From: Leucosporidium creatinivorum
Lineage: Eukaryota > Basidiomycota > Microbotryomycetes > Leucosporidiales > Leucosporidiaceae
DNA: 64,000 bases
Direction of reading: 5' to 3'
NCBI GenBank assembly: GCA_001600635.1
Contig: BCKL01000016.1
Span: 548,449-612,448, forward strand
Notes under the pieces: model-generated
Seen by the model: the letters and a program-made list of their open reading frames with translations, nothing else
What the model was told of the DNA's origin: nothing
Databases searched by the model: none
Position numbers and translations under genes: made by a program
Part shown: positions 10,220-25,888 of the stretch, one piece after another
How the letters are laid out: the number at the start of each line of letters is the position of its first letter
How positions within the stretch are numbered: position 1 is the first letter of the stretch

Positions 10220-11223
10220 ATGGTCAATATCATGACCCTCGTCGCCGAACCACCTTCGACTGGCTCGGCGAGGCCAGCGCCGAGCTCGAGCGCGTCCCCG
10301 TCCACTACCCCTCCTCGCCTTCAAGAGAGCGCGCAGCTTCCGGGTATATCGACGCCCACCGGTCTAGCGCCCCTCGAGGTCCCCCGCCCACCTCAGAGCC
10401 TGTACTCTCGTCTCGCGGCCTTTTTCAACGACAACCGAACCGTCGACGCTCGCCTCAAAGCTATGGAAGCCTGGCTCGTCGTTGGCTCGGAGGACCGCAG
10501 AATCCTGTTCGACATGAGCATTGCTCTCTGCGCTGCCTCGCCTTTGTCTTCCTCTTCGGCTACGCCTGCTTCCTTGAAGAACTGCCCGCGAATTCGGATC
10601 GTTACCTCTCGACATACGTGATCGTTGCGGCCAAGACCATCCTCTCCGGCAGCTATATAATCGTATTGCGGAGCTGGTGCGATGGATTCGGGTTCGTAGT
10701 GAGCTGGGCCGTTGGCTGGCTCTGGCGTCAAGTCATCTCGGCGCTCTTCTATACACTCGCCGGGGGCGCCACAGCGACACTCGTGGCAGTACTCCTATGG
10801 TGGATGACTCCCGTTGTCTCTCTATACTGGGCTGTCAACCTCCACACCCTCACCACCGCCGACTTCTGTCCGGCTCTTACCGCCGAACTTCCTCTCCCCC
10901 TCTCTTACCTCATCGACAACGTCCTTCTCCTCGGCCCCATACTCTGGTACATCAAACGCTGGACCCCCGTCTCGACCCTCTACTACCCCTACCTTCACCT
11001 CGCCCTCGCCGCTCACCTCATCGCCGGCATGTTCGACCTCACGCCGAGCTCCTTTGCGCCGAGCAAGCTTCTTCAGGCGGTCGGTGTGGACGTCTCGGTG
11101 CGCTTCTCTGGTTCAAGGGAGATGGAGCAGAAGCTGGAGGAGAGGGTAAAGGAGATCGAGGAGCTGAGGAAGCGGGTGGAGAGGACCGAGCGGGAGCTGA
11201 ACTTGAAGAAGGAAGTGGAGTAG
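10220..11223 (+). pseudogene. Multi-pass membrane protein family, copy 1 (frame interrupted once)
   Basis: This gene belongs to a family of four in this window that I cannot match to a named family. From the ATG at 10220 the frame encodes a Pro/Ser-rich N terminus and the family motif TVDARLKAMEAWLVV (about residues 75-89). Just after, near 10520-10545, coding continues in the frame one base back: hydrophobic helices, the core WAVNLHTLTT, YLIDNVLLLGPILWY and a long charged helix rich in E, R and K near the C terminus. The whole span of 1004 nt is one base short of 335 codons. No intron with a CTNAC branch site can bridge the two parts. It is either a young pseudogene or a gene with a one-base error in the draft sequence. 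Confidence 0.65.
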
Positions 11224-11798
11224 GGGCTTGTCGAGGCGTGGTAGCAGAGTTTGAAAGCCGGAAACGGCAGTGCGCTTACTTTAGCCTCGGTCCAGCAGCG
11301 AATCAGACAGCGAGGAGCTGGTGAAGCGGCTCAACAGAGACCGCCGAAGAAACAACCCTTCGCCGAGGTTCGCCTGAACTCTCTCGCTCAGGCAGAGGAC
11401 GGCTTGCGAAGCTTCCTCGAGTACAAGAGACATATTATAGCTGACGTACTAGTCATGCTTTCAAGAGAGCACCGACTCGAAGGAGCTGGAGGAAGGGCGA
11501 CAGCCTCGGCGCCTTCGCGGAGCCTTTCGCGAGAGCAGTAGGAGGTCTGATTGGGCGAAGGGGAAAGCTGATGGGTCGCGTGCGAAGCTGTAGCTCTGCT
11601 TGACCTCTGTGAACGAGCATCGTCTCGAGCATGCACCTACTCGAGCTTGGGTCTCCTTGTCTGAGCGAGCTGGAGCCGTCTCTTGCTTTCCTGCCACAAC
11701 CTCGTGCCCGCGACCCTCTCGCAGCTCTTTGGTGAGTGTCGACGGCTACCACCAGAGCAGTGCAGAGCTCACAGCTGACTTTACTCTGCACCACAGCC
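11224..11798. other. Intergenic and spliced 5' leader of the FBXO21-like gene
   Basis: The right end holds a likely leader intron at 11732-11796 (GTGAGT donor, GCTGAC branch site, CACAG acceptor) ending two bases before the start codon. Nothing coding was recognised in the rest. Confidence 0.6.
11732..11796 (+). promoter_or_regulatory. Leader (5' UTR) intron of the FBXO21-like gene
   Basis: GTGAGT donor, ACAGCTGAC branch site and CACAG acceptor, ending two bases before the ATG. Its place makes the start codon open the second exon. Confidence 0.7.
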
Positions 11799-14082
11799 AT
11801 GCCCGTCCCCGCCATCCCGCCCGAGCTCGTTGAAGCGATCCTGCGCGAGCTGCCTCCCTCCGACGCTTCGACCATCCCGACTCTCCTCGCCTGCACCCTC
11901 GTCTCGCACATCTTCTACCCGATCGCTACGCAGGACTCGCTCTGGTCCCCCATCGCTCGCCGCTGCTGGACGTTCGGACGAGTGACGACCTATACTCGCC
12001 TCTCGAACGAGGAGGATCAGAAGGAGATGAAGCTGGCTTTTCCCGAGGAGCAGGACAGTCTCAGGAATATCCTCGGGCGCATCGCTGCTCGTCCTACCAT
12101 CCAGCTCATCCTCACTCGTCACCTCGAAGCTCTCCTCGCCGAGCGGTCCAACAAGATCCCTCACGTCCTCGCCATCGTCGAGCTCGGAGAGACCAACGTC
12201 ATGCCCTTCCTCGACGAGCTCGCGTTCATGGAGGATGATGGAAGCTGCCCCGACGACTGGCTCGCGAGGAGGTACTGGGCGAGGCAAGCCCGAGGCGCCA
12301 TCTCGAGGCGGAAGGCCATCGCCGTCTGGAAGCGCATCGGAGAGGGCTGGGACACAACGGTGGCGTTCTACAAGGGACTGTTCGCATTTTCTGCCTTCCG
12401 TGGTACGCAGAACCTTGACGAGGTGAGTAAACAACGAAGAGATGACATAGGCCGAAGCTGACCTTTCGCTAAGGTCGAGAAGCAGATTCCGTGGTTCTCC
12501 TTCTTCCTCGGCTCGATATTCCCCTTCATCAATCAACAGGCTCAATATGGCGACGACGACTTTGGCTCCCTGTATGAGCTTGGCGGAGGCATCGAGATGA
12601 TCCTGCTTCGAGGAGCCTTCAAGCTCTCTCCAAGATCTGATCCAGAGCTTGCACTTGGGGCCGATCAGGTGAGCACTGCTGTACCTCTCTTTCAAATGCA
12701 AGGGCCGACCGACTTCCATGGTAGCTGCTCCCCCACGACATCGTCCGCCGAATCCGCGAGCTCGACGGTCAAGACTCGGCGCTGGTGTCGGAGACGCCAG
12801 ATCCGAAGAGTATCGCCAAAGGCCACCCTAGCGTCTTTGGTGCTTTGTTCTGCGCCGCCGCCAAGCGCCAGCAGCAAGGCGATATCCTCTTCCGACCAGT
12901 GCAGCTTCCTTCGAGGGATCTCGCCGTCGCCGTCGCTTGGAAAGGCGCCAAACGCATCCCTTCCGAGGACTGGACCTACATCTCGTTTCCCCCCAGTGGA
13001 CAGGTACCTACCACCGTCGTTCGCCGGCACTACCAGTACCTTCGTGACGCCGACCACCCCTTCGTCAAGAATCTCGACTTCGATACTTTTGCTGCTCGTA
13101 CTCCGACTCGAGACTTGGTGCGCTAAGTTTCATTCCTTTTGACCGTGTCCGATAAGCTGACTCGCATCTTGCACAGGTATCTGAGTACGCCCGCGACGTC
13201 TCTCAAGCGCTGCTCACTATCGTCGGACTCGGCCCTCGCCAACTCTCCATGGACGACGATGGGACGAGCCACTACGCCTCGAGACATGTTCACCTCATGA
13301 TCAAGCCTTCTGAGAGGCAGTACGTCGGAGAACGAGATGAGTTGGTCACGGACTTTGAGACTAGCCTTTCTGTCGTCGTCGACGTCGTCGAGACTCGCTA
13401 TCCTTGGGACGCCGAACTCGTCATGCGCGATGTGCTTCCCCGCTCCGACCTGCCTTCGGAGATCAAGGATCCTTATGCTTGCAGGCTTTTGAGGTGCAGG
13501 CTGCCGATGCCGAAGCTGAGCGAGGCTGCAGGAGGAGCGAGGTCCCGGTGGCGCCGAGGTTTCGAGCGGGCGAGCTCGTCGAGATTCGAGATTCTCCAGA
13601 CGACGTGTACCTCGTGGTTGCCTGGGCTTCCGTCTCTTTCACTGAGGGTCAGTCCAGCTAGACCGCCACAACCTTGAACGCCAGCTGAGCCCCCCTTCCA
13701 TGTGCAGAAACGCTTGAGAAGCTCGAAGAGATCGACGACCCGGATCTCGCTTCTTTGCTCAGCGAGCTTCGGCTTGAGACAGGGGAGATCTCCAAGATCC
13801 AGTTTCTCTACCAGCTGGTGCGCATCCTTTCTCTCTGTTCCCGCGCTGGGATAGCTGACCTCTTACACCTCGGCGCTTCCTCAGCTCGACTCTCAAGGGG
13901 CGACCGAACGCTTCCTCGACATGCCCAACCTCCAGACGCGTACATCGCTTAACAAAGAAGACCTCNAACCCTTTATCAAGCTCCACGACATCGGCAAGTA
14001 CTTCAAGCGAGTTGACTGGGACGCCGAGCCGCCTCGCTTCCTCCTCGCCGACGACCACGCCAAACGCTACCCTGACGACTGA
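11799..14082 (+). CDS. FBXO21-like F-box protein with YccV/HspQ-like C-terminal domain
   Basis: Seven exons (11799-12422, 12474-12668, 12725-13117, 13177-13431, 13485-13647, 13708-13817, 13885-14082) give 645 residues. The N terminus is an F-box (IPPELVEAILRELPP with LLACTLVSHIFYPIA). A long helical middle follows, the place of the transglutaminase-like region in FBXO21. The C terminus resembles the YccV/HspQ hemimethylated-DNA-binding fold: RFRAGELVEI, then HDIGKYFKRVD. F-box proteins of this type recruit substrates to SCF ubiquitin ligases. Two cautions apply. The fourth intron (13432-13484) lacks the usual branch site and could instead mark a single lost base in continuous coding sequence. 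One base at 13966 is an N, leaving one codon undefined. Confidence 0.75.
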
Positions 14083-14282
14083 GAGACGGAAGGGGGTAGT
14101 CGAGTAGCTTGCTGTACCTCCTCTCTTTCCGGCGCAACCTCGCAATCAAATGAGCATACTCGACTCGGCGCCGAGACGAGGCCAGAGCGAGCAGCTGGCC
14201 TTCGCGAGTCTTCAAGCTCTCCGCTTTCTGCTCCAAGACCGAGATCATTTGGTGACAAGCTAGAACGACAATCATAAGGATA

Positions 14283-17200
14283 CTAAGGCTCTTCCACTAA
14301 GCTCGTACACGCCCCATCGTGCACCTCGGCGCCGACTCCCTCCCAAGGTGAGAGGTAGCTGCAGCCCTCCTGCTCGACCCACCATCGCCCCGCGTCTTTT
14401 CGCTCCGCATAAACAGCACCCGCCGGTCTCGGTCCCTCCAGCTTGACCTCTCCAGCCCTCCCTTCTCCCCGCACCAACCTCGGCAGCTCCTCGCTCCTCA
14501 ACCTCGCCTCTCCTCTTCCCACCCACTCTGGCGGAAACGCGCTCCACCCCTCCGAGTCAGCCCTCGTCGTATTGATCTTCCCCAGGTCCTCAATAGGCCC
14601 TCGCCCCATCTGCCAGTCGTGGAGAGGCCGATTGAAGCGGAAGCGCTTCGGCGGAGGGATGCTGTGGGCTTTGGCGTTGACGTCGCAAAAGCCGATGGAG
14701 GAGCGGGGGTCGGAAGGGATGTAGCCGTGTTCGAGGCCGAGGGAGTAGGACCAGATGGGATTGGAAGGTAGTGAGGGATTCGGCGAGAGGAGGGAGTTGG
14801 AGGTCTTCCAGCTGTGAAACGGGAGGCAGAGGTCAGCTGCTGTATTCATTAGACGGGAGTAAAGAGCAGACGCACGTCCAGTAGAACCAGTTCTGCGAAT
14901 GCGAAATGGATATCGAGAGATAGAGGTCAGCGCCGGGTAGAGAGCTGACGAAGGTTGACAGTGATACTCACCTGGAAAGCGTCCATATGAGCCAGCGCGA
15001 CTTGCTTGAGCCCATCTTTGAGCTCGTCGTCCCAGCTCGTGAAGTCCTGTAGTGCAAACGCGGTCAGCTCTCTCAGTCCGCCGGGCCGAACGAGAGCGAC
15101 TCACCTCCCACTTCGCACACCCTCCGACAGGCGATGCCCCAGGTCCATCCGGCTCCAACGCAGAAGGAAACGTCCCTTCGAACCTGGTACCGAGTCCCAC
15201 GCCGTTCAAGAAACTCCCACAATCGTTGACGGCGACGCTCCACTCGCCGGTCATCGCAACGCCGACTTGAGCCATCGTGCGATTGAAGTCGGTCGCCCAA
15301 TTGGCGCAGGGCTTGAGCGCTTGTTGTTCCATCGAGTCGAGATTGGGGTCGCGGAAGGCGAGGTAGCGATGTGAATCGAGGGCGACTCGGTCGGCGCCGG
15401 GGAGGAAGCCGTACCAGCGTGCTGTGCCCTTGAAGCCGTTGTGGAAGGTGATCATCTGCGCGAGGGAAAGATAGAACATTCAGCAAGCTGCCTTGCGTTG
15501 CTGAGAGCTTAGAGATGGTACTGACGGGTCCGTGACCTTCGCCGAGGCCCGAGGCAGCTCGAACGGTTCGGTAGGCTTCGAAGTAGCTGTGGAGCGCGAG
15601 TTAGCTCAAAGCACGTCGAGAGGTGAGAAGAGAATCACGCACAAGGACCTGAGCGCGAATGAGCCGATTGTCTCCATGTAGGGCTCGTTGACGACAGAAA
15701 ACATGAGCACGACCTGCAAGGGCGACAAGTCAGTGACGAGATGTCAAGCTCGACAACGCTTTGCGCTCACTTCGGCATTCTCGGGTAGGGAAAGAAACTC
15801 GGCGATAGAGCGGATGATGTTGAGAGTGCGCTGAGCGTTGGCGATGCCCATCGCGCCATTGAGGAAGCCGACGGGACCAGACTTGCCCGAGTGGTTCCAG
15901 CCGCTGTTGATGGTGAGAGATGAGCGCTGAGCGGCGATGGGAGAGGTGCTCACTCACTTCTGACTGCCCGGCACGGTATGAAGGTCGAAGTTGATGCGGA
16001 GGCCGTATTTCCTCGCCCAAGTCATGGCCTTGAGGAAGTCTGCGGAGGCGAGAGGGTCAGCTTAGGAAGACGGCGACAAAAGAGGACGGCGCTTACACTT
16101 CCAAGAGACGTAAGCGAGGAAGGGCTCCCCCTCGCGCACCTCCACCGCCCAGAAGGGAACAGCGATCCGAACCCAGTTGAGACCGGCGCCAGCGATGCGA
16201 GCAAAGTCGTGCTCGGTCTGTTCGAGAAGCGTACGAGTCAGCATGTGTCGCTGTAGAGTCTAGCTGAGAGGGGATTGCCGCACGATGAAAGTTGCGTAGT
16301 GATGCTCGATGACCTCGGCGAGACGATCGCCGAGATTCTCGCTAAGCGTCCATTCGTCGATAGCGGGCGCCGAGGCATTGAGGAAGGGTTCAAAGAGTGC
16401 CGGTGTGATGAAGGGCTCAAGTGTGAGCCATCTGCAGGTCCGAACGAATCGGTGAGCGGCGTTTTGAGAGCAGCGTGCGAGCACAGCTGTCCTCACCCGC
16501 CGAGGTTGACGCCGTAGATGCGCTGCGTAGAGAAATCCCATGGTGCAGATAGTGGTGGCGTGTAGGCTTGGGCGATAGCGGATGTACTGAAGGGAGTCGA
16601 GTTCCAGATTCCGCCGCTGCGAGAGATGTCGAGCGATTAGGAGGGGATCCGACCTCGTCGAGATCACACAACTCACAAGTCATTCTTGTAGATGAACTCG
16701 GTCCCATCCTCCATTCGTATCGTGCTGCCGTTGCCGCCGCTGCTCAACGCCGAGCTACTTCTCCATCTCCCGAATCGCCAATCTCGGGGTATCCGATCCC
16801 TCCCCGCTGCAGCCAGCACCACCAGTAATCCTGCGATCATACTTACAACGACAACACGCCTCTTCCTCTGTGCTGCAGCGGCTGCCGACGGTCTCTCGCC
16901 CTTCGGAGCGCGTCTGCTGCCCTCGGCCAATGTTCCTCCCAGCATTGGCTGCCCATCTCCTTCCTCTCCGTCCAGTCCGCTTCCTTCTACATCTCCGTAT
17001 GGATCGCTTGCCCGCCGTTTCCCTCGCGCAACGCTGGACAGCTCTAAAGCGACGCGATCGGCTTCGACGTATCCAGTTAAGGTGGACGAGGCGACCGACG
17101 CTGCAGGGTGATCCTTGTGATGGGCACTCGATGTAGAGGTGCTTCGACTGCTGCTGCTGTGCACGCTGGTGGTAGGAGAGCGATCCCATTTAAAGCTGTT

Positions 17201-17341
17201 GTCTCGAGGGCTAACGAGATGCGGAGGGTAGGCGGCGGGAAGGCGTGGCGGGGGGCGGAAAGGTGGAGGGGATTCGGGTGTGAGGTCGATCGAGATGTGC
17301 GAAGAGGTTGGCGAGCGATCTGAGTCGAGAGATAGGCTCAT
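14283..17341 (-). CDS. Membrane-anchored GH5 exo-1,3-beta-glucanase
   Basis: About a dozen exons read from the minus strand encode a type II membrane enzyme. The long first exon (16677-17341) gives a Ser/Pro-rich cytosolic tail and a single membrane helix (VVVVSMIAGLLVVLAAA) after a basic RKRR stop. The outer part is a glycoside hydrolase family 5 barrel: YGVNLGGWLTLEPFITP, GLNWVRIAVPFWAVE, GLRINFDLHTVPGSQNGWNH, then VVNEPYMET with the acid/base Glu and MTGEWSVAVNDC with the nucleophile Glu. This matches fungal glucan 1,3-beta-glucosidases that remodel wall beta-glucan at the cell surface. The ATG at 17341 gives a tail of normal length; an in-frame ATG-free extension upstream was not used. 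All junctions keep frame. Confidence 0.9.
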
Positions 17342-17934
17342 TCCTCGCGCGCTTGCTCGAAGTGGATGGGGAAGGCGGAGCTCGCTGGAGGAGCTGCAGG
17401 TCAAGGGCAAGCTACAGCGACCATGGGTAAGGCAAGTCAGGTGAGCTCGAGGTGCTGCTGTAGGTCGAAACGAGGGATGTGGCCGAAGTCGAAGCCCGTC
17501 AAAGTGGCCTTCTCGCCCTTCGATCCACTCCCCGCTCGAGCTGCGTAAATGCTGCTGCTGAGGTACAAGTCGCGTCGAAGAGCTCACCGTGTATCTTGTA
17601 GCAATATGCTGGAATCGTCAGGAAACAAAAGGAAAGACTTGCAAGCCCTACACGCTCGACGCAAGAATCTCGGAGGGGCGGTGGGTTCGATGAGCGCACC
17701 GGGGTCCTGCACAAGTTGGCCGAATCGTCTACATCTTTCGGGAAGCCCGGCACGATGTACAAAAGTGGAAGATGGTGAGAAGAGGCTGGCAGATGAACAA
17801 ATCGCTGCAATGGGAGCCCAGAAGCCGCCGCCGAAGACATCGCCGAGGTCAGCAGGGGGTTGACGAGGGACTCTCTGCCTCTGTCCAGCTCTAGCTCTAC
17901 AGATGAGCGAGCACTCTGCTTCAAACGCTTAGAT
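17342..17934. other. Divergent region between the GH5 gene and membrane-family copy 2
   Basis: This holds the promoters of two genes that point apart. A CTCTACAG acceptor-like site lies just before 17913, so copy 2 may have a spliced leader. No other gene was supported. Confidence 0.4.
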
Positions 17935-18679
17935 ATGTTACATGAGATCTCTCCAACTTCACCAGGCTCAAAGGTGCCACTTGAGGACTTCGGCGATTCA
18001 GGAATTTCGGCGCTCGTTTCGCACCAGGAGAAAGCTTCTAAAGAGGACTCTCGGCGAATTTGTCCTCGTTCAATCGAATCGCCCTGCACGTCCTTCTATG
18101 ACTACATCGCGCCAAAGGTCTTGCTCGCTGGATCGCCATCGCCGCGCTGTACGCCTTGGGCGGCCTCATCATCCTCGCCATCAGCTCGGGCCTCGGCGAC
18201 GATTTTTCGCACTATACTCTTGCATCTTTCTCCCTCTCCTTGCCCTCGGATGGTGCGTATCGCTTCATACCCTGTCCACACATGCTGCCGCCATGCACTA
18301 CCTCCCCACTTTCGCTTCCAAGCCTCCCGCCGGCTTCTTCTACCTCGTCGATCACTTCCTCCTCTTCTCCCCACTCCTCTACACCCTCCACTGGACCACT
18401 CTCCTCCCCCTCGCCATCAATCCTTATCTCTACACCCTCATCACACTCTTCACCCTCGCCGGAGCCCTCGACATCTCCCCCACCGACGTCCTCCGAGCGC
18501 TCGGTCGTCTGTTCGACACCCTTAAGGCGCAGAATCAGGTGGTGTCGAAGACCATTGAGGTGGATCAGCTGAGGTTGGCATTAGAGGATCAGGAGAGGCC
18601 TGCTGCTGAGGTCGAGAGAGAGCTGCAAAGGGAGAGGGAGGGTCAGAATGAGCGAGGCAAGGTTGAGCAGCGCTGCTGA
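17935..18679 (+). pseudogene. Multi-pass membrane protein family, copy 2 (frame interrupted about twice)
   Basis: The C-terminal part is clear: a helix FFALYSCIFLPLLALGWC, the family core CVSLHTLSTHAA, FYLVDHFLLFSPLLY, PYLYTLITLFTLAGALDIS and a charged E/R/Q-rich tail, read in one frame to the stop at 18677-18679. A preceding helix (WIAIAALYALGGLIILAIS) lies in another frame, joined at the T5 run 18203-18207. A possible N terminus from the ATG at 17935 lies in the third frame. Both switches are of the same sign, one base lost each time. The N terminus shows no clear TV-x-x-R motif, so its extent is uncertain. The copy is closer to copy 1 than to copies 3 and 4 in the core. It is either a decayed gene or poorly resolved sequence. 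Confidence 0.5.
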
Positions 18680-19180
18680 GGTGTGGTCAGTCGTTATTCT
18701 GGCTAGCTGGGGAGCTGTCGAGCTCGAGTAAGAATTGAAGCTAACATTGCACGCTTCTTCGTCCCCCCCAGGACGTTTTGCAGCTTGAACAAGGCGGAGG
18801 TCAAAGCTCGGCGCTCGGCGTCGAGGCGAGTTGAGCTGAAGGTTTGGGAAGTGCTGTAATGCTTGCGATCACAGAACTCTATAGATTGCATCGCTCGCCG
18901 TGCTCTCAAGACAAGCTCAGCAAAGCCTGTGCAGCGAATCGCGGATCGAATCAAGTCCGAAAAAGGGGCCTGCGCTCGAAAGCAGGCTGCAAGCGAGCCT
19001 CACCAGGGTTTCTAGTCTGCTACAGGGCATCTCTTAGTCTCTCAATCCTTTCTCCTGTACCAAGGCTGCTATTTGTGAGCATAGCCGTCACGCAAGCGAG
19101 CGAAGGCTCGCAGAGCCAATCTTCATCTGGAGAAGGCTTGACGCTTCTTTCCCTCCTCCACATCGCCTCCTCGCTTTTGC
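18680..19180. other. Intergenic between membrane-family copies 2 and 3
   Basis: No gene was recognised. The last 40 bases before the start of copy 3 resemble the leader of copy 4 and so belong to the duplicated unit. Confidence 0.5.
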
Positions 19181-20200
19181 ATGACCGCCAACGAGCTCGA
19201 AGACTGGACGCCCGTCTCCTCGCAGGTTGGCCCAAGCCCTGCAGAGCCCTCGCCTGCTCAACTGCCCTCCTCCCCCTCCGAGCCCTCACCCTCGTCGGCG
19301 ATGCCCTCGAAGGAAAGCGACGCCAAAGTCGACCAGCCCTCGACCGGGAAGGATGCTGGGTTCTTTGTGGATCACCCTACGGTAGAGCATCGCATTAGAT
19401 ACCTCTTCTTCTGCGACTCGCCTTCAAACTCCCCTCCTCATTCCACTTCGACCAACGCGCCTCCCAAAGTCGTAGTAGAAGCGCTCACGGCAAGCGTGGG
19501 GGTGATGATTGTGTCTATCTTCATCTCCATACTCGTATACTTATGCTGCCCAAAGGCGGCACTCCTCGCTATCAAGCCTCCCACCACGTTCGCCGAGCTT
19601 CTCGCCTTCAACGCAACCATCTGGCGTTGGTCCTATCGTTCTGCTGCGTTCTTGATCTGGGGGGTGCACGCAGTTATCAGCGGTTGGACCTATATGATGG
19701 CGGCCTCGGCGTACTTCATCGCCCTCCTTGCCCTCGCCTCTCTCGGAGGCATCGCCCTCTTCCTCGCCTGGTTCGCCGTGGGTCCTCCCCTCCTGGTCAC
19801 CGTCTTCTCCATCACCCTCCACGAGTGGAGTGTACTTCAAATCCTTCCCGAGGGTCTGCTCTCGCCTCCCATCGCCTACACCATCGACCACCTCGTTCTC
19901 ATCTCGCCGGTTCTTGCCCTCGCTCGTTACCTTCCCTCCTCCCTCGGCGCCCTCACCTACCCCCTTGTCGCCTACCCGATCCTCACGCTATATCTCCTAT
20001 CCGCCGCCCTCGACTGCAGCATGCTGGGTGTTTTCAGCTACCCATTCGATCGCTTCGAGAGGATCCTCGCCGAGCATCGCCAAGAGCTCCGACAGCATCA
20101 GCAGGAGGTGAAGGAGGAGGATAAGAAGGCGAGGGGAGCTGTGGGAAAGCCGGAGGGCTCGTCGGGTAGAGCGAGGGTGCCGTCATACCAGGCTTGGTGA
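19181..20200 (+). CDS. Multi-pass membrane protein family, copy 3 (intact)
   Basis: A single exon encodes 339 residues with no known domain. Residues 1-60 are Pro/Ser-rich and start MTANELEDWT. The family motif DHPTVEHRIRYLFF follows at 64-77. Hydrophobic segments lie near 103-122, 155-200, 203-215, 232-248 and 257-278. The conserved core is SITLHEWSVLQILP (210-223), SPPIAYTIDHLVLISP (228-243) and YPLVAYPILTLYLLSAALDC (260-279). A cytosolic-looking helix FDRFERILAEHR and a Gln/Glu/Lys-rich tail close the protein. By hand count, 69 of 91 residues (210-300) match copy 4. The start is supported because leader and first residues align with copy 4. Function is unknown; a structural or signalling membrane role would be a guess. 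Confidence 0.8.
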   Translation: MTANELEDWTPVSSQVGPSPAEPSPAQLPSSPSEPSPSSAMPSKESDAKVDQPSTGKDAGFFVDHPTVEHRIRYLFFCDSPSNSPPHSTSTNAPPKVVVEALTASVGVMIVSIFISILVYLCCPKAALLAIKPPTTFAELLAFNATIWRWSYRSAAFLIWGVHAVISGWTYMMAASAYFIALLALASLGGIALFLAWFAVGPPLLVTVFSITLHEWSVLQILPEGLLSPPIAYTIDHLVLISPVLALARYLPSSLGALTYPLVAYPILTLYLLSAALDCSMLGVFSYPFDRFERILAEHRQELRQHQQEVKEEDKKARGAVGKPEGSSGRARVPSYQAW

Positions 20201-20571
20201 GCCGTGAGGTCGAGGCAGACGCGCCGAGGTGAGTCCGGTCGAGCTCTAGCCAGTCGAGAGTAGCATCTGATACCTTCGCTCGTCAACAGGTGGACAAAAT
20301 AAGATTCTTACGACTGGCTGGATAGTCTCTCTCCCCCCTTGCTGTAGTCTTCCTCTCCCTTCTTCAGCCGCGAGACGGTCTCTCGGCTCAAGCCTCCCGA
20401 ACCATCTTTGTGCTCTATTCACAATGCAAATCAGTTAAATAGCTAAATACAGAACGCGGAGAGTAGAAGCACTGCAGAGCGAACACCACAACAGCCTTGC
20501 TCGTCGAACTAAAACGGGCCCGAGCGAGTCGAACGCTTCTTGCCTTCCGCCACGTCGCTCCTCGTTTTCGC
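20201..20571. other. 3' untranslated intron of copy 3 and leader of copy 4
   Basis: A GT-AG intron of 61 nt is likely at 20229-20289, 28 nt after the copy 3 stop. The rest holds the promoter and leader of copy 4, whose last 40 bases resemble those before copy 3. Confidence 0.55.
20229..20289 (+). other. 3' UTR intron of membrane-family copy 3
   Basis: GTGAGT donor 28 nt after the stop and an AACAG acceptor; 61 nt long, with a counterpart of equal length after copy 4. Confidence 0.6.
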
Positions 20572-21627
20572 ATGACCGCTACCGACCTCGGAGACTGGAC
20601 CAAGATCAACACCACCACCATGAGCACTCCAGAGCACTCCTCCTCCACCTCTCCCCTCTTCCCCTCGCCCGCCGTCAGTGCCGCCAGCTCTGAAGACGAA
20701 CCGAGCCTTTCGCCCTCGAAAGAGGATCTCAGCGCCCCCAAGAAGGAGAGCAAGGGGTTCTTGAAGCAGTATCAAACGGTCGAGGAGCGCTTCAAGGTAG
20801 CTGTGCTCCCCTACGTGCTGGAGGATCCTCCCAAGTCTACCGCTTCGCCCGCCGACCCTCGCACCGCCGTACAGAGGGGGCTAGACAACAGCCAGGGCGC
20901 TGCCGTCGCTCTCTTCGTCACTTTAATCATCACATACCTCTGCGGCAAGCTCTTTGGTGTCGAGATCCTTCCCAGCAGCCTCGCCGAGCCGATTAGCGTT
21001 GCCTTCGCCCCGGTCTGGAGCGGAATCACTCTCGCTATAAAGATGCTCAAGGTCCCGCTCGGAATCCTCAAGGTCTACTCGCAGCTCTCCTTTGAACGTG
21101 CTTACGACGTCGTACGCATGATCGTCCACCCTTGGTATCGCTTCGTCGCGCTGGGCTTCGCCGCCTTCTTCGCCTTCCATATCGTCCTCGCACCCCTTCT
21201 CCTCGTCGTCTGGTCCGTCACCCTCCACGATTGGAGCACTCTCAAGATCCTCCCTACCAACTTGGTATCGCCTCCCGTCGCCTACACCCTCGACCACCTC
21301 GTTCTCATCTCGCCGATCCTCGCCCTCGCCCGCTACCGCCCTTCCTGCCTCGGCCCCTTCACCCACCCTTTCATCGCCTACCCTGTTCTCACCCTTTACC
21401 TCTTGTCTGCCGCTCTCGACTGCACCATCCTCGAGGTCTTCAACTACCCCTTCGACCGCTTCGAGAGGATCCTCGCCGAGCATCGCCGCCAGCTCAAGGA
21501 GCAGATGACCAAGGGTGGAGAAGCTGATGATGAAGGGAAGGGAAAAGGAGTGGATGAAAAGATGAGCAACGTCGAGACTGAGAAGAAAGTCACTTCCGAC
21601 GAGCTCAAGCAGCCTTTCCCTTACTGA
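20572..21627 (+). CDS. Multi-pass membrane protein family, copy 4 (intact)
   Basis: A single exon encodes 351 residues and is the tandem partner of copy 3. It begins MTATDLGDWTKI, parallel to copy 3, and has a Ser/Pro/Lys-rich N terminus, the motif YQTVEERFKVAVLPYVLED, several hydrophobic segments (first near VALFVTLIITYLCG), the core SVTLHDWSTLKILP, SPPVAYTLDHLVLISPILA and YPVLTLYLLSAALDC, then FDRFERILAEHR and a Lys/Glu-rich tail. The N-terminal half is much less like copy 3 than the C-terminal half, so the C-terminal module seems to be under stronger constraint. No named family was recognised. The gene converges on MCM4. Confidence 0.8.
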   Translation: MTATDLGDWTKINTTTMSTPEHSSSTSPLFPSPAVSAASSEDEPSLSPSKEDLSAPKKESKGFLKQYQTVEERFKVAVLPYVLEDPPKSTASPADPRTAVQRGLDNSQGAAVALFVTLIITYLCGKLFGVEILPSSLAEPISVAFAPVWSGITLAIKMLKVPLGILKVYSQLSFERAYDVVRMIVHPWYRFVALGFAAFFAFHIVLAPLLLVVWSVTLHDWSTLKILPTNLVSPPVAYTLDHLVLISPILALARYRPSCLGPFTHPFIAYPVLTLYLLSAALDCTILEVFNYPFDRFERILAEHRRQLKEQMTKGGEADDEGKGKGVDEKMSNVETEKKVTSDELKQPFPY

Positions 21628-22110
21628 GGAGAAGCGCCGAGGTGAGTTCGGGTCGAATTCCCTCTCGCAGCGGACGCTAGCTAATGCTCGCACCCCTCGC
21701 AGACGGACAAGAGATAAGATGTGCTTTGCTTGACGCTTGCTTCGCTCCCAGTCGTGTACCTCCTTCGCTACGACCTTCCCTTCGATCTACCCTCTCCTCC
21801 CTCGCCGACTCCTCGATTCGTCCTTTGTGCCATACAGACTTGTCTCGATAAGCCCGAACGCAGAGAGATTTGTAGAGAGTGCGAGAGAGAGAGAGAGAGT
21901 CAAGCAGCAACTCAAGCCTAGTGAAGCGAGCTCGGAGACCTCGGCGAAGCTCTCGGCATGGTGTAACTCGCTTACGAAGGGCGACCGAAGTGGGGGTAGA
22001 ACAGATAAGATGTATTGTCATACAGAGAGAACGCGAGCTAGACAAGATTGACTGATACACCTTCAACGCAAGAACACACCGCCCGAGAACTTCTAAGCCT
22101 CCACTCCTTC
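21628..22110. other. 3' untranslated intron of copy 4; convergent 3' ends
   Basis: A 61-nt GT-AG intron at 21642-21702 lies 14 nt after the stop, matching the length and place of the one after copy 3. Downstream sequence (GGACAAGAGATAAGAT) also resembles that after copy 3. The MCM4 stop lies at the right end. A short GA dinucleotide run lies near 21880-21900. Confidence 0.6.
21642..21702 (+). other. 3' UTR intron of membrane-family copy 4
   Basis: GTGAGT donor 14 nt after the stop, a GCTAAT branch-like site and a CGCAG acceptor; 61 nt long, as after copy 3. Confidence 0.6.

Positions 22111-25888
<3,778 letters not shown>

Follow-up and report, generated by a model that had tools for sequence, protein, structure and literature searches.

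Ten related loci on one contig

The stretch of Leucosporidium creatinivorum DNA analysed here (the window, 64,000 nucleotides; positions 548449-612448 of contig BCKL01000016.1, hereafter C16, in an assembly of 27.7 Mb and 63 contigs) contains four loci, copies 1 to 4, of a family of predicted membrane proteins. Six more loci (A to F) lie upstream of the window; all ten are on C16, and together they span about 107 kb (Table 1). An earlier note on the window had described four membrane-protein genes clustered in 11.4 kb. The family proved to be real and the four copies to be related, but the cluster is actually one of ten loci over the longer distance, and the supposed genes at 10220 and 17935 are not open genes in this assembly, the sequence of copy 1 being divided between two frames and that of copy 2 among three. 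As had been described, copies 3 and 4 each form a single open frame. Searched against the whole genome, copy 4 recovers copy 3 with an expectation value (E) of 6.7e-63 (41% identity), copy 2 at E 1.4e-7 and two sites upstream of the window.

Genome-wide homology was assessed by six-frame protein searches with six queries (copy 4, the C-terminal module of copy 2, A, copy 1, F and C), five of them run at E <= 10; the best candidates alone were scored, and very weak relatives may escape. Two weak matches in total, at E 0.27 and 0.15, were obtained outside C16 with these five queries in the 27.7-Mb genome. Regional scans covered C16:440.0-612.4 kb (172 kb). A profile scan of the six-frame open reading frames (ORFs) of this region revealed no further strong member; the profile was seeded with family members, and the members' own scores are therefore circular. 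A strict combined motif selected three ORFs in the 172 kb, all of them members (3, 4 and A), and the other members are thus missed by the motif. Under a rough codon model, copy 4 ranked second of the 181 gene-like segments in the same region.

Table 1 Positions of the family loci, of the C-terminal modules of copies 3 and 4, and of the copied block that includes the F-box gene.
Feature	Position	Strand	Subfamily	Remarks
Copy 1	window 10220..11223	+	gamma	N-terminal part (TVDAR) and membrane module with charged tail in different frames; without intron signal
Copy 2	window 17935..18679	+	beta	beta is a label, not a supported clade; B nearest; spread over three frames; C-terminal module and tail clear, TVxxR not found
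Copy 3	window 19181..20200	+	alpha	intact, one open frame, 339 residues
Copy 4	window 20572..21627	+	alpha	intact, one open frame, 351 residues
Copy 3 C-terminal module	window 19787..20089	+		residues 203-303; H214, Y233, D236, D278; DNA 79% identical to copy 4
Copy 4 C-terminal module	window 21193..21495	+		
D	C16:462.6-463.7 kb	-	gamma	
A	C16:483.6-484.5 kb	-	alpha	
E, tail fragment	C16:514.8-514.9 kb	+		57-residue match
C	C16:524.7-526.3 kb	-	gamma	carries insert
B	C16:535.3-536.3 kb	-	beta	in-frame TAA
F	C16:543.8-544.8 kb	-	gamma	intact
Copied block, copy 1 tail through F-box gene	window 11174..14083	+		92% over 2.9 kb versus C16:519217-522136 (-)
Shorter block copy	C16:514788-516175	+		84% over 1.4 kb; carries fragment E

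Protein plan and conserved C-terminal module

Copy E is counted as a locus and excluded from the tree and from the alignment, which holds the other nine loci in nine rows; residue numbers follow copy 3. The features that the earlier note had picked out recur across this alignment. The N terminus is rich in proline and serine, with 32-43% S+P+T in the six copies measured. In the TVxxR motif, V and R are present in all eight rows that hold this part and T in seven of the eight, and in the C-terminal module H214, Y233, D236 and D278 are invariant (9/9 rows).

Hydrophobic stretches in the consensus lie at about 97-125, 149-171, 172-216, 229-248 and 261-285, overlapping peaks being merged by hand. 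Copies 3, 4 and F have 7, 7 and 6 hydropathy segments against shuffle means of 2.5, 1.8 and 3.3, an excess that is suggestive only, single shuffles reaching 9, 7 and 14. Two AlphaFold models are poor (predicted local distance difference test, pLDDT, 52 and 57; predicted template modelling score, pTM, 0.25), and their helix layout alone was used. Both show the same layout in copy 3 numbering: a disordered tail, a TVxxR helix (68-76), helices at 95-128, 134-166, 171-221, 229-250 and 261-276, and a tail helix (283-320). Should the last helices span the membrane one after another, H214, Y233/D236 and D278 would lie on one membrane side. The heptad excess was greater than in 95% of shuffles in five of the eight charged tails, namely those of copies 3, 1, F and D and the other-frame tail of A.

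The earlier note had also placed the peak of conservation in the C-terminal module, as is borne out when copy 3 is compared with copy 4. Between the two, identity is 73% over residues 203-303, with nonsynonymous (dN) and synonymous (dS) divergences of 0.17 and 0.63 (dN/dS about 0.27), whereas residues 1-202 are 28% identical (dN 0.96, dS 1.23, dN/dS about 0.8). Fourfold sites agree at 31 of 49 positions in the module and at 13 of 34 before it (chance 0.36; p = 0.028). This pattern is consistent with selection acting on the module, and perhaps with exchange between the two copies. Outside the module, synonymous change is close to saturation, and the fast change of the N-terminal half therefore does not demonstrate positive selection.

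Subfamilies and homology of the copies

Pairwise identities across the family are 28-59%. In the module tree, A, 3 and 4 form the alpha subfamily (support 100/99), and F, D, 1 and C form gamma (98/99). The best non-self match of copy 2 in its search was B (43%, E 4e-22); the two are mutual best matches there and are labelled beta here. To the left of the window every locus except E points left, and copies 1-4 point right. Read outwards, the order is gamma-beta-alpha on both sides (right: 1, 2, 3/4; left: F, B, A, with C and D omitted). That this mirror-like layout arose from an old inverted duplication is only a suggestion, as few genes are concerned and two are omitted.

Copies 1 and 2 are, by sequence comparison, homologous to copies 3 and 4. 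Searched against the genome, the copy 2 module found copy 1 at E 1.1e-10, copy 4 at E 2.8e-8 and copy 3 at E 2.1e-4. The copy 1 query did not reach copies 3 and 4 genome-wide at E <= 10, and the link is therefore carried by copy 2, by profiles and by single BLASTP comparisons, in which copy 1 matched copy 4 at 3e-5 and copy 3 at 2e-6. A profile of 1, C, F and D matched a profile of 3, 4 and A at E 1.7e-10 (probability 96.9, score 77.3). This score lies above every control: reversed profiles gave 19.9 and 22.3, the best of 100 column shuffles 22.9, and the best of 100 block shuffles 42.4 with 10-column blocks and 54.8 with 20-column blocks, which leave stretches of the core whole. The similarity between the two pairs, which the earlier note had staked on a profile search, is thus above background.

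Searches for a named family

In the databases searched, neither copy 3 nor copy 4 had a confident match to any named family of transporters or enzymes, and the family may be undescribed, as the earlier note had suggested. No Pfam model matched above its curated cut-off in the pieces of all ten loci scanned (the N-terminal parts of copy 1 and C lying outside the scan), and no NCBIfam model did so for copies 3 and 4. Sub-cut-off Pfam matches (Bac_export_2 0.41, DUF6742 0.059, TM_PBP2_N 0.49, HSBP1 0.46, XhlA 0.84, PET117 0.0082, PAP_PilO 0.033 and YnfE 0.35) were deemed to be chance or coil. PDB sequences gave no match, the best by profile being at E 0.13. No relative was confirmed with the alpha profile among the IMG/VR viral and GTDB prokaryote contigs, a search of moderate reach whose first pass used two short peptide patterns in each. 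Foldseek returned nothing at E <= 0.001; its best values were E 5.7 and 2.2, the matches at 2.2-9.9 being noise, and models with a pTM of 0.25 are too poor to exclude anything. Nothing relevant was found in a search of the open-licence literature for a published description.

These Pfam, PDB and Foldseek results, the last with the reservation just given, speak against a known transporter, channel or enzyme superfamily that has diverged past recognition, with the H/Y/D/D residues as the remnant of an active or transport site. Such an origin would account for polar residues conserved at membrane-helix ends in nine of nine rows and for the purifying selection that copies 3 and 4 show in their module, and the fold comparison, made with two poor models, had low power. 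We consider it possible, if somewhat unlikely.

Apparently broken copies in an intron-rich region

Three of the ten loci are intact (3, 4 and F). Copy 1 carries one frame change, copy 2 two, A one in its tail and D at least one, while B has one in-frame TAA, C has an insert followed by a later stop, and E is a tail fragment. The insert in C (C16:525371-525989, 619 bp) has perfect 16-bp inverted ends with a 7-bp direct repeat alongside. Similar DNA (74-92%) occurs at 12 other places, making 13 with C, on 11 contigs. From these sequence features, the insert looks like a non-autonomous DNA transposon of small size.

Introns in the region carry a clear signal (GTRNGY, CTRAY, YAG). The signal occurs 0.89 times per kb per strand in the 172 kb, against 0.25 in a reversed control, and not once in the ten family stretches (9.0 kb). 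In another listing, copy 3 had two intron candidates at its end, one of which overlaps the stop codon while the other lies beyond it. Judged by these signals, the family is intronless within an intron-rich region. The frame changes are therefore not introns of the usual kind, and hidden introns were rejected as their source. In the 3.6-kb stretch of a neighbouring MCM gene there are ten intron candidates, and every frame change there has, by reading, the signal or a near-variant of it.

Whether most of the frame changes stem from the assembly, and the majority of the copies are working genes, is a separate matter; we regard this as unlikely. Each break in 1, 2, A and D amounts to a single change of frame, the window copy of the F-box gene has its frame broken by a one-base difference in a T run relative to its 92% duplicate, and dN is still below dS in pieces of 1, C and D. 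There is also a single N in the 172 kb, at window 13966. However, the transposon-like insert of C, the in-frame TAA of B and the fragmentary state of E are breaks of other kinds, and no frame change in the coding sequence of the MCM gene or of a P-type ATPase gene, about 5.5 kb in total, was left unexplained (the ATPase was assessed by reading, and one of its junctions is absent from the intron scan).

A probable birth-and-death family of membrane proteins

We tentatively interpret the ten loci as a birth-and-death family of membrane proteins with about five helices that probably oligomerise through coiled coils, and put the probability of this reading as a whole at roughly 0.45. Its birth-and-death and C-terminal-module parts are likely; its oligomer and polar-site parts are guesses. 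Local duplicates of differing age, many of them broken, are the mark of such evolution, and ten loci of which three are intact correspond to it, with base errors possible in 1, 2, A and D. The locally confined, intronless family would have grown by local, partly inverted duplication followed by rapid decay. An intact protein would begin with a disordered tail rich in Pro and Ser, followed by a short helix with TVxxR and then by a membrane part of about five helices. Its charged end would probably be a coiled coil, and the coil would join copies as homo- or hetero-oligomers. The working unit would be the last three membrane helices, a constrained C-terminal module behind an N-terminal half that changes fast in copies 3 and 4, and the invariant H, Y, D and D would meet at one membrane face as a putative site for binding an ion or ligand. 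Together, the turnover of whole copies and the fast change of the N-terminal half would suggest strain-varying selection or conflict rather than housekeeping.

Several observations weigh against this interpretation. Both structural models are poor. Heptad excess is missing in three of the eight tails (copies 4, 2 and B), and the tail of A sits in another frame. Copies 2 and B stand beside gamma without a supported clade of their own. Fourfold agreement outside the module is close to chance, as expected of sites near saturation, and lineage restriction is judged from this genome alone. Finally, errors in the assembly could account for the single-base frame changes of 1, 2, A and D, but they do not explain the state of C and hardly explain that of B.

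Local membrane-protein families of this sort are common in fungi. The DUP240/COS genes of Saccharomyces, for example, form lineage-restricted membrane-protein families that lie in local clusters, lose copies and act in membrane traffic. A neutral or dosage-type tandem family of this kind, whose copies come and go without conflict, would share with the present one the local cluster, the membrane proteins and the many broken or lost copies, and ordinary genes nearby also occur in many segmental duplications. In contrast, no DUP model matched in the Pfam scans, and helix count and protein length differ from those of DUP240/COS. Overall, a neutral or dosage-type family appears rather improbable.

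Among killer meiotic drivers, the wtf proteins carry a PY motif in the N tail, and the shorter isoform of a wtf driver is the poison. Pfam contains wtf and IPR013902-related models as well as DUP models. The wtf genes of Schizosaccharomyces pombe are reported to have mostly five or six exons, a second in-frame start in the drivers and pervasive exchange between copies (PMC6526906). For the tdk family (IPR013902), 49 pseudogenes among 93 loci and homologues in Basidiomycota are reported (PMC12930445). If the present family were one of killer drivers or suppressors like wtf or tdk, its intact copies would poison meiotic products that lack them, and its broken copies would be spent drivers. It resembles wtf as a local multi-copy membrane-protein family that changes rapidly and has many pseudogenes (seven of ten loci broken or fragmentary; a high share of pseudogenes is also a trait of tdk), and the fourfold agreement in the module is compatible with exchange between copies. 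However, no wtf model matched in the Pfam scans, the family is single-exon where wtf is not, no Met is conserved between the start and TVxxR in the six copies listed (judged from the sequence alone), and no [LP]PxY motif was found in nine pieces from loci other than D and E. As for tdk, no IPR013902 model matched in Pfam, and the main text of the tdk report names no transmembrane segments (0 occurrences; PMC12930445). Likeness of behaviour alone remains, and a driver of the wtf or tdk kind seems very unlikely. An independent single-exon basidiomycete family of killer drivers or suppressors, in which coiled-coil membrane oligomers would poison meiotic products that lack the gene, the fast-changing N-terminal half would set specificity and dead copies would be spent drivers, is more remote still.

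If the birth-and-death interpretation is correct, an orphan membrane-protein family has been caught in the process, with three intact copies from two subfamilies and a sharply bounded conserved module. The conflict genes wtf and tdk belong to families of similar look, and the intron-free structure eases cloning. Otherwise, this is one more local fungal gene family, of value for annotation and as a warning, since copies 1 and 2, half of the "genes" seen in the window, appear to be broken.

Genes and duplications around the family

The F-box gene between copies 1 and 2, named as such in the earlier note, has a Pfam F-box-like match. From its position inside the cluster the note had argued that the cluster is older than the last duplication. 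This argument is weak because the F-box gene itself lies in a copied block, one edge of which lies within the copy 1 tail for both the 92% and the 84% copy; fragment E is a piece of this tail carried along with the 84% copy. The GH5 label given to another gene within the cluster was not confirmed: four pieces of it had no Pfam support, and a genome-wide search with the Pfam Cellulase (GH5) model missed the locus, although short exons may hide a match. This so-called GH5 gene (window 15796-16221, minus strand) has a DNA relative of 68-77% identity at C16:442354-442744.

Linkage of the family to mating type was considered and rejected, since the STE3 matches are on contig C25 and the homeodomain match is on C24, not on C16. 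Two inverted duplications lie upstream of the window. One (C16:475425-476781 and 484734-486105; 1.4 kb, 84.7%) has a copy that adjoins family copy A. The other, of 920 bp and 99.8% identity (C16:495697-496616 and 498163-499082), is at the end of the P-type ATPase gene and may be either recent copying or an assembly artefact.

The MCM gene, which we take to be MCM4, occupies window 22100-25600 on the minus strand. Its approximately ten short introns, of about 55-75 bases, are of one strong type (GTRNGY, CTRAY, YAG) and are useful as an intron model for this genome.

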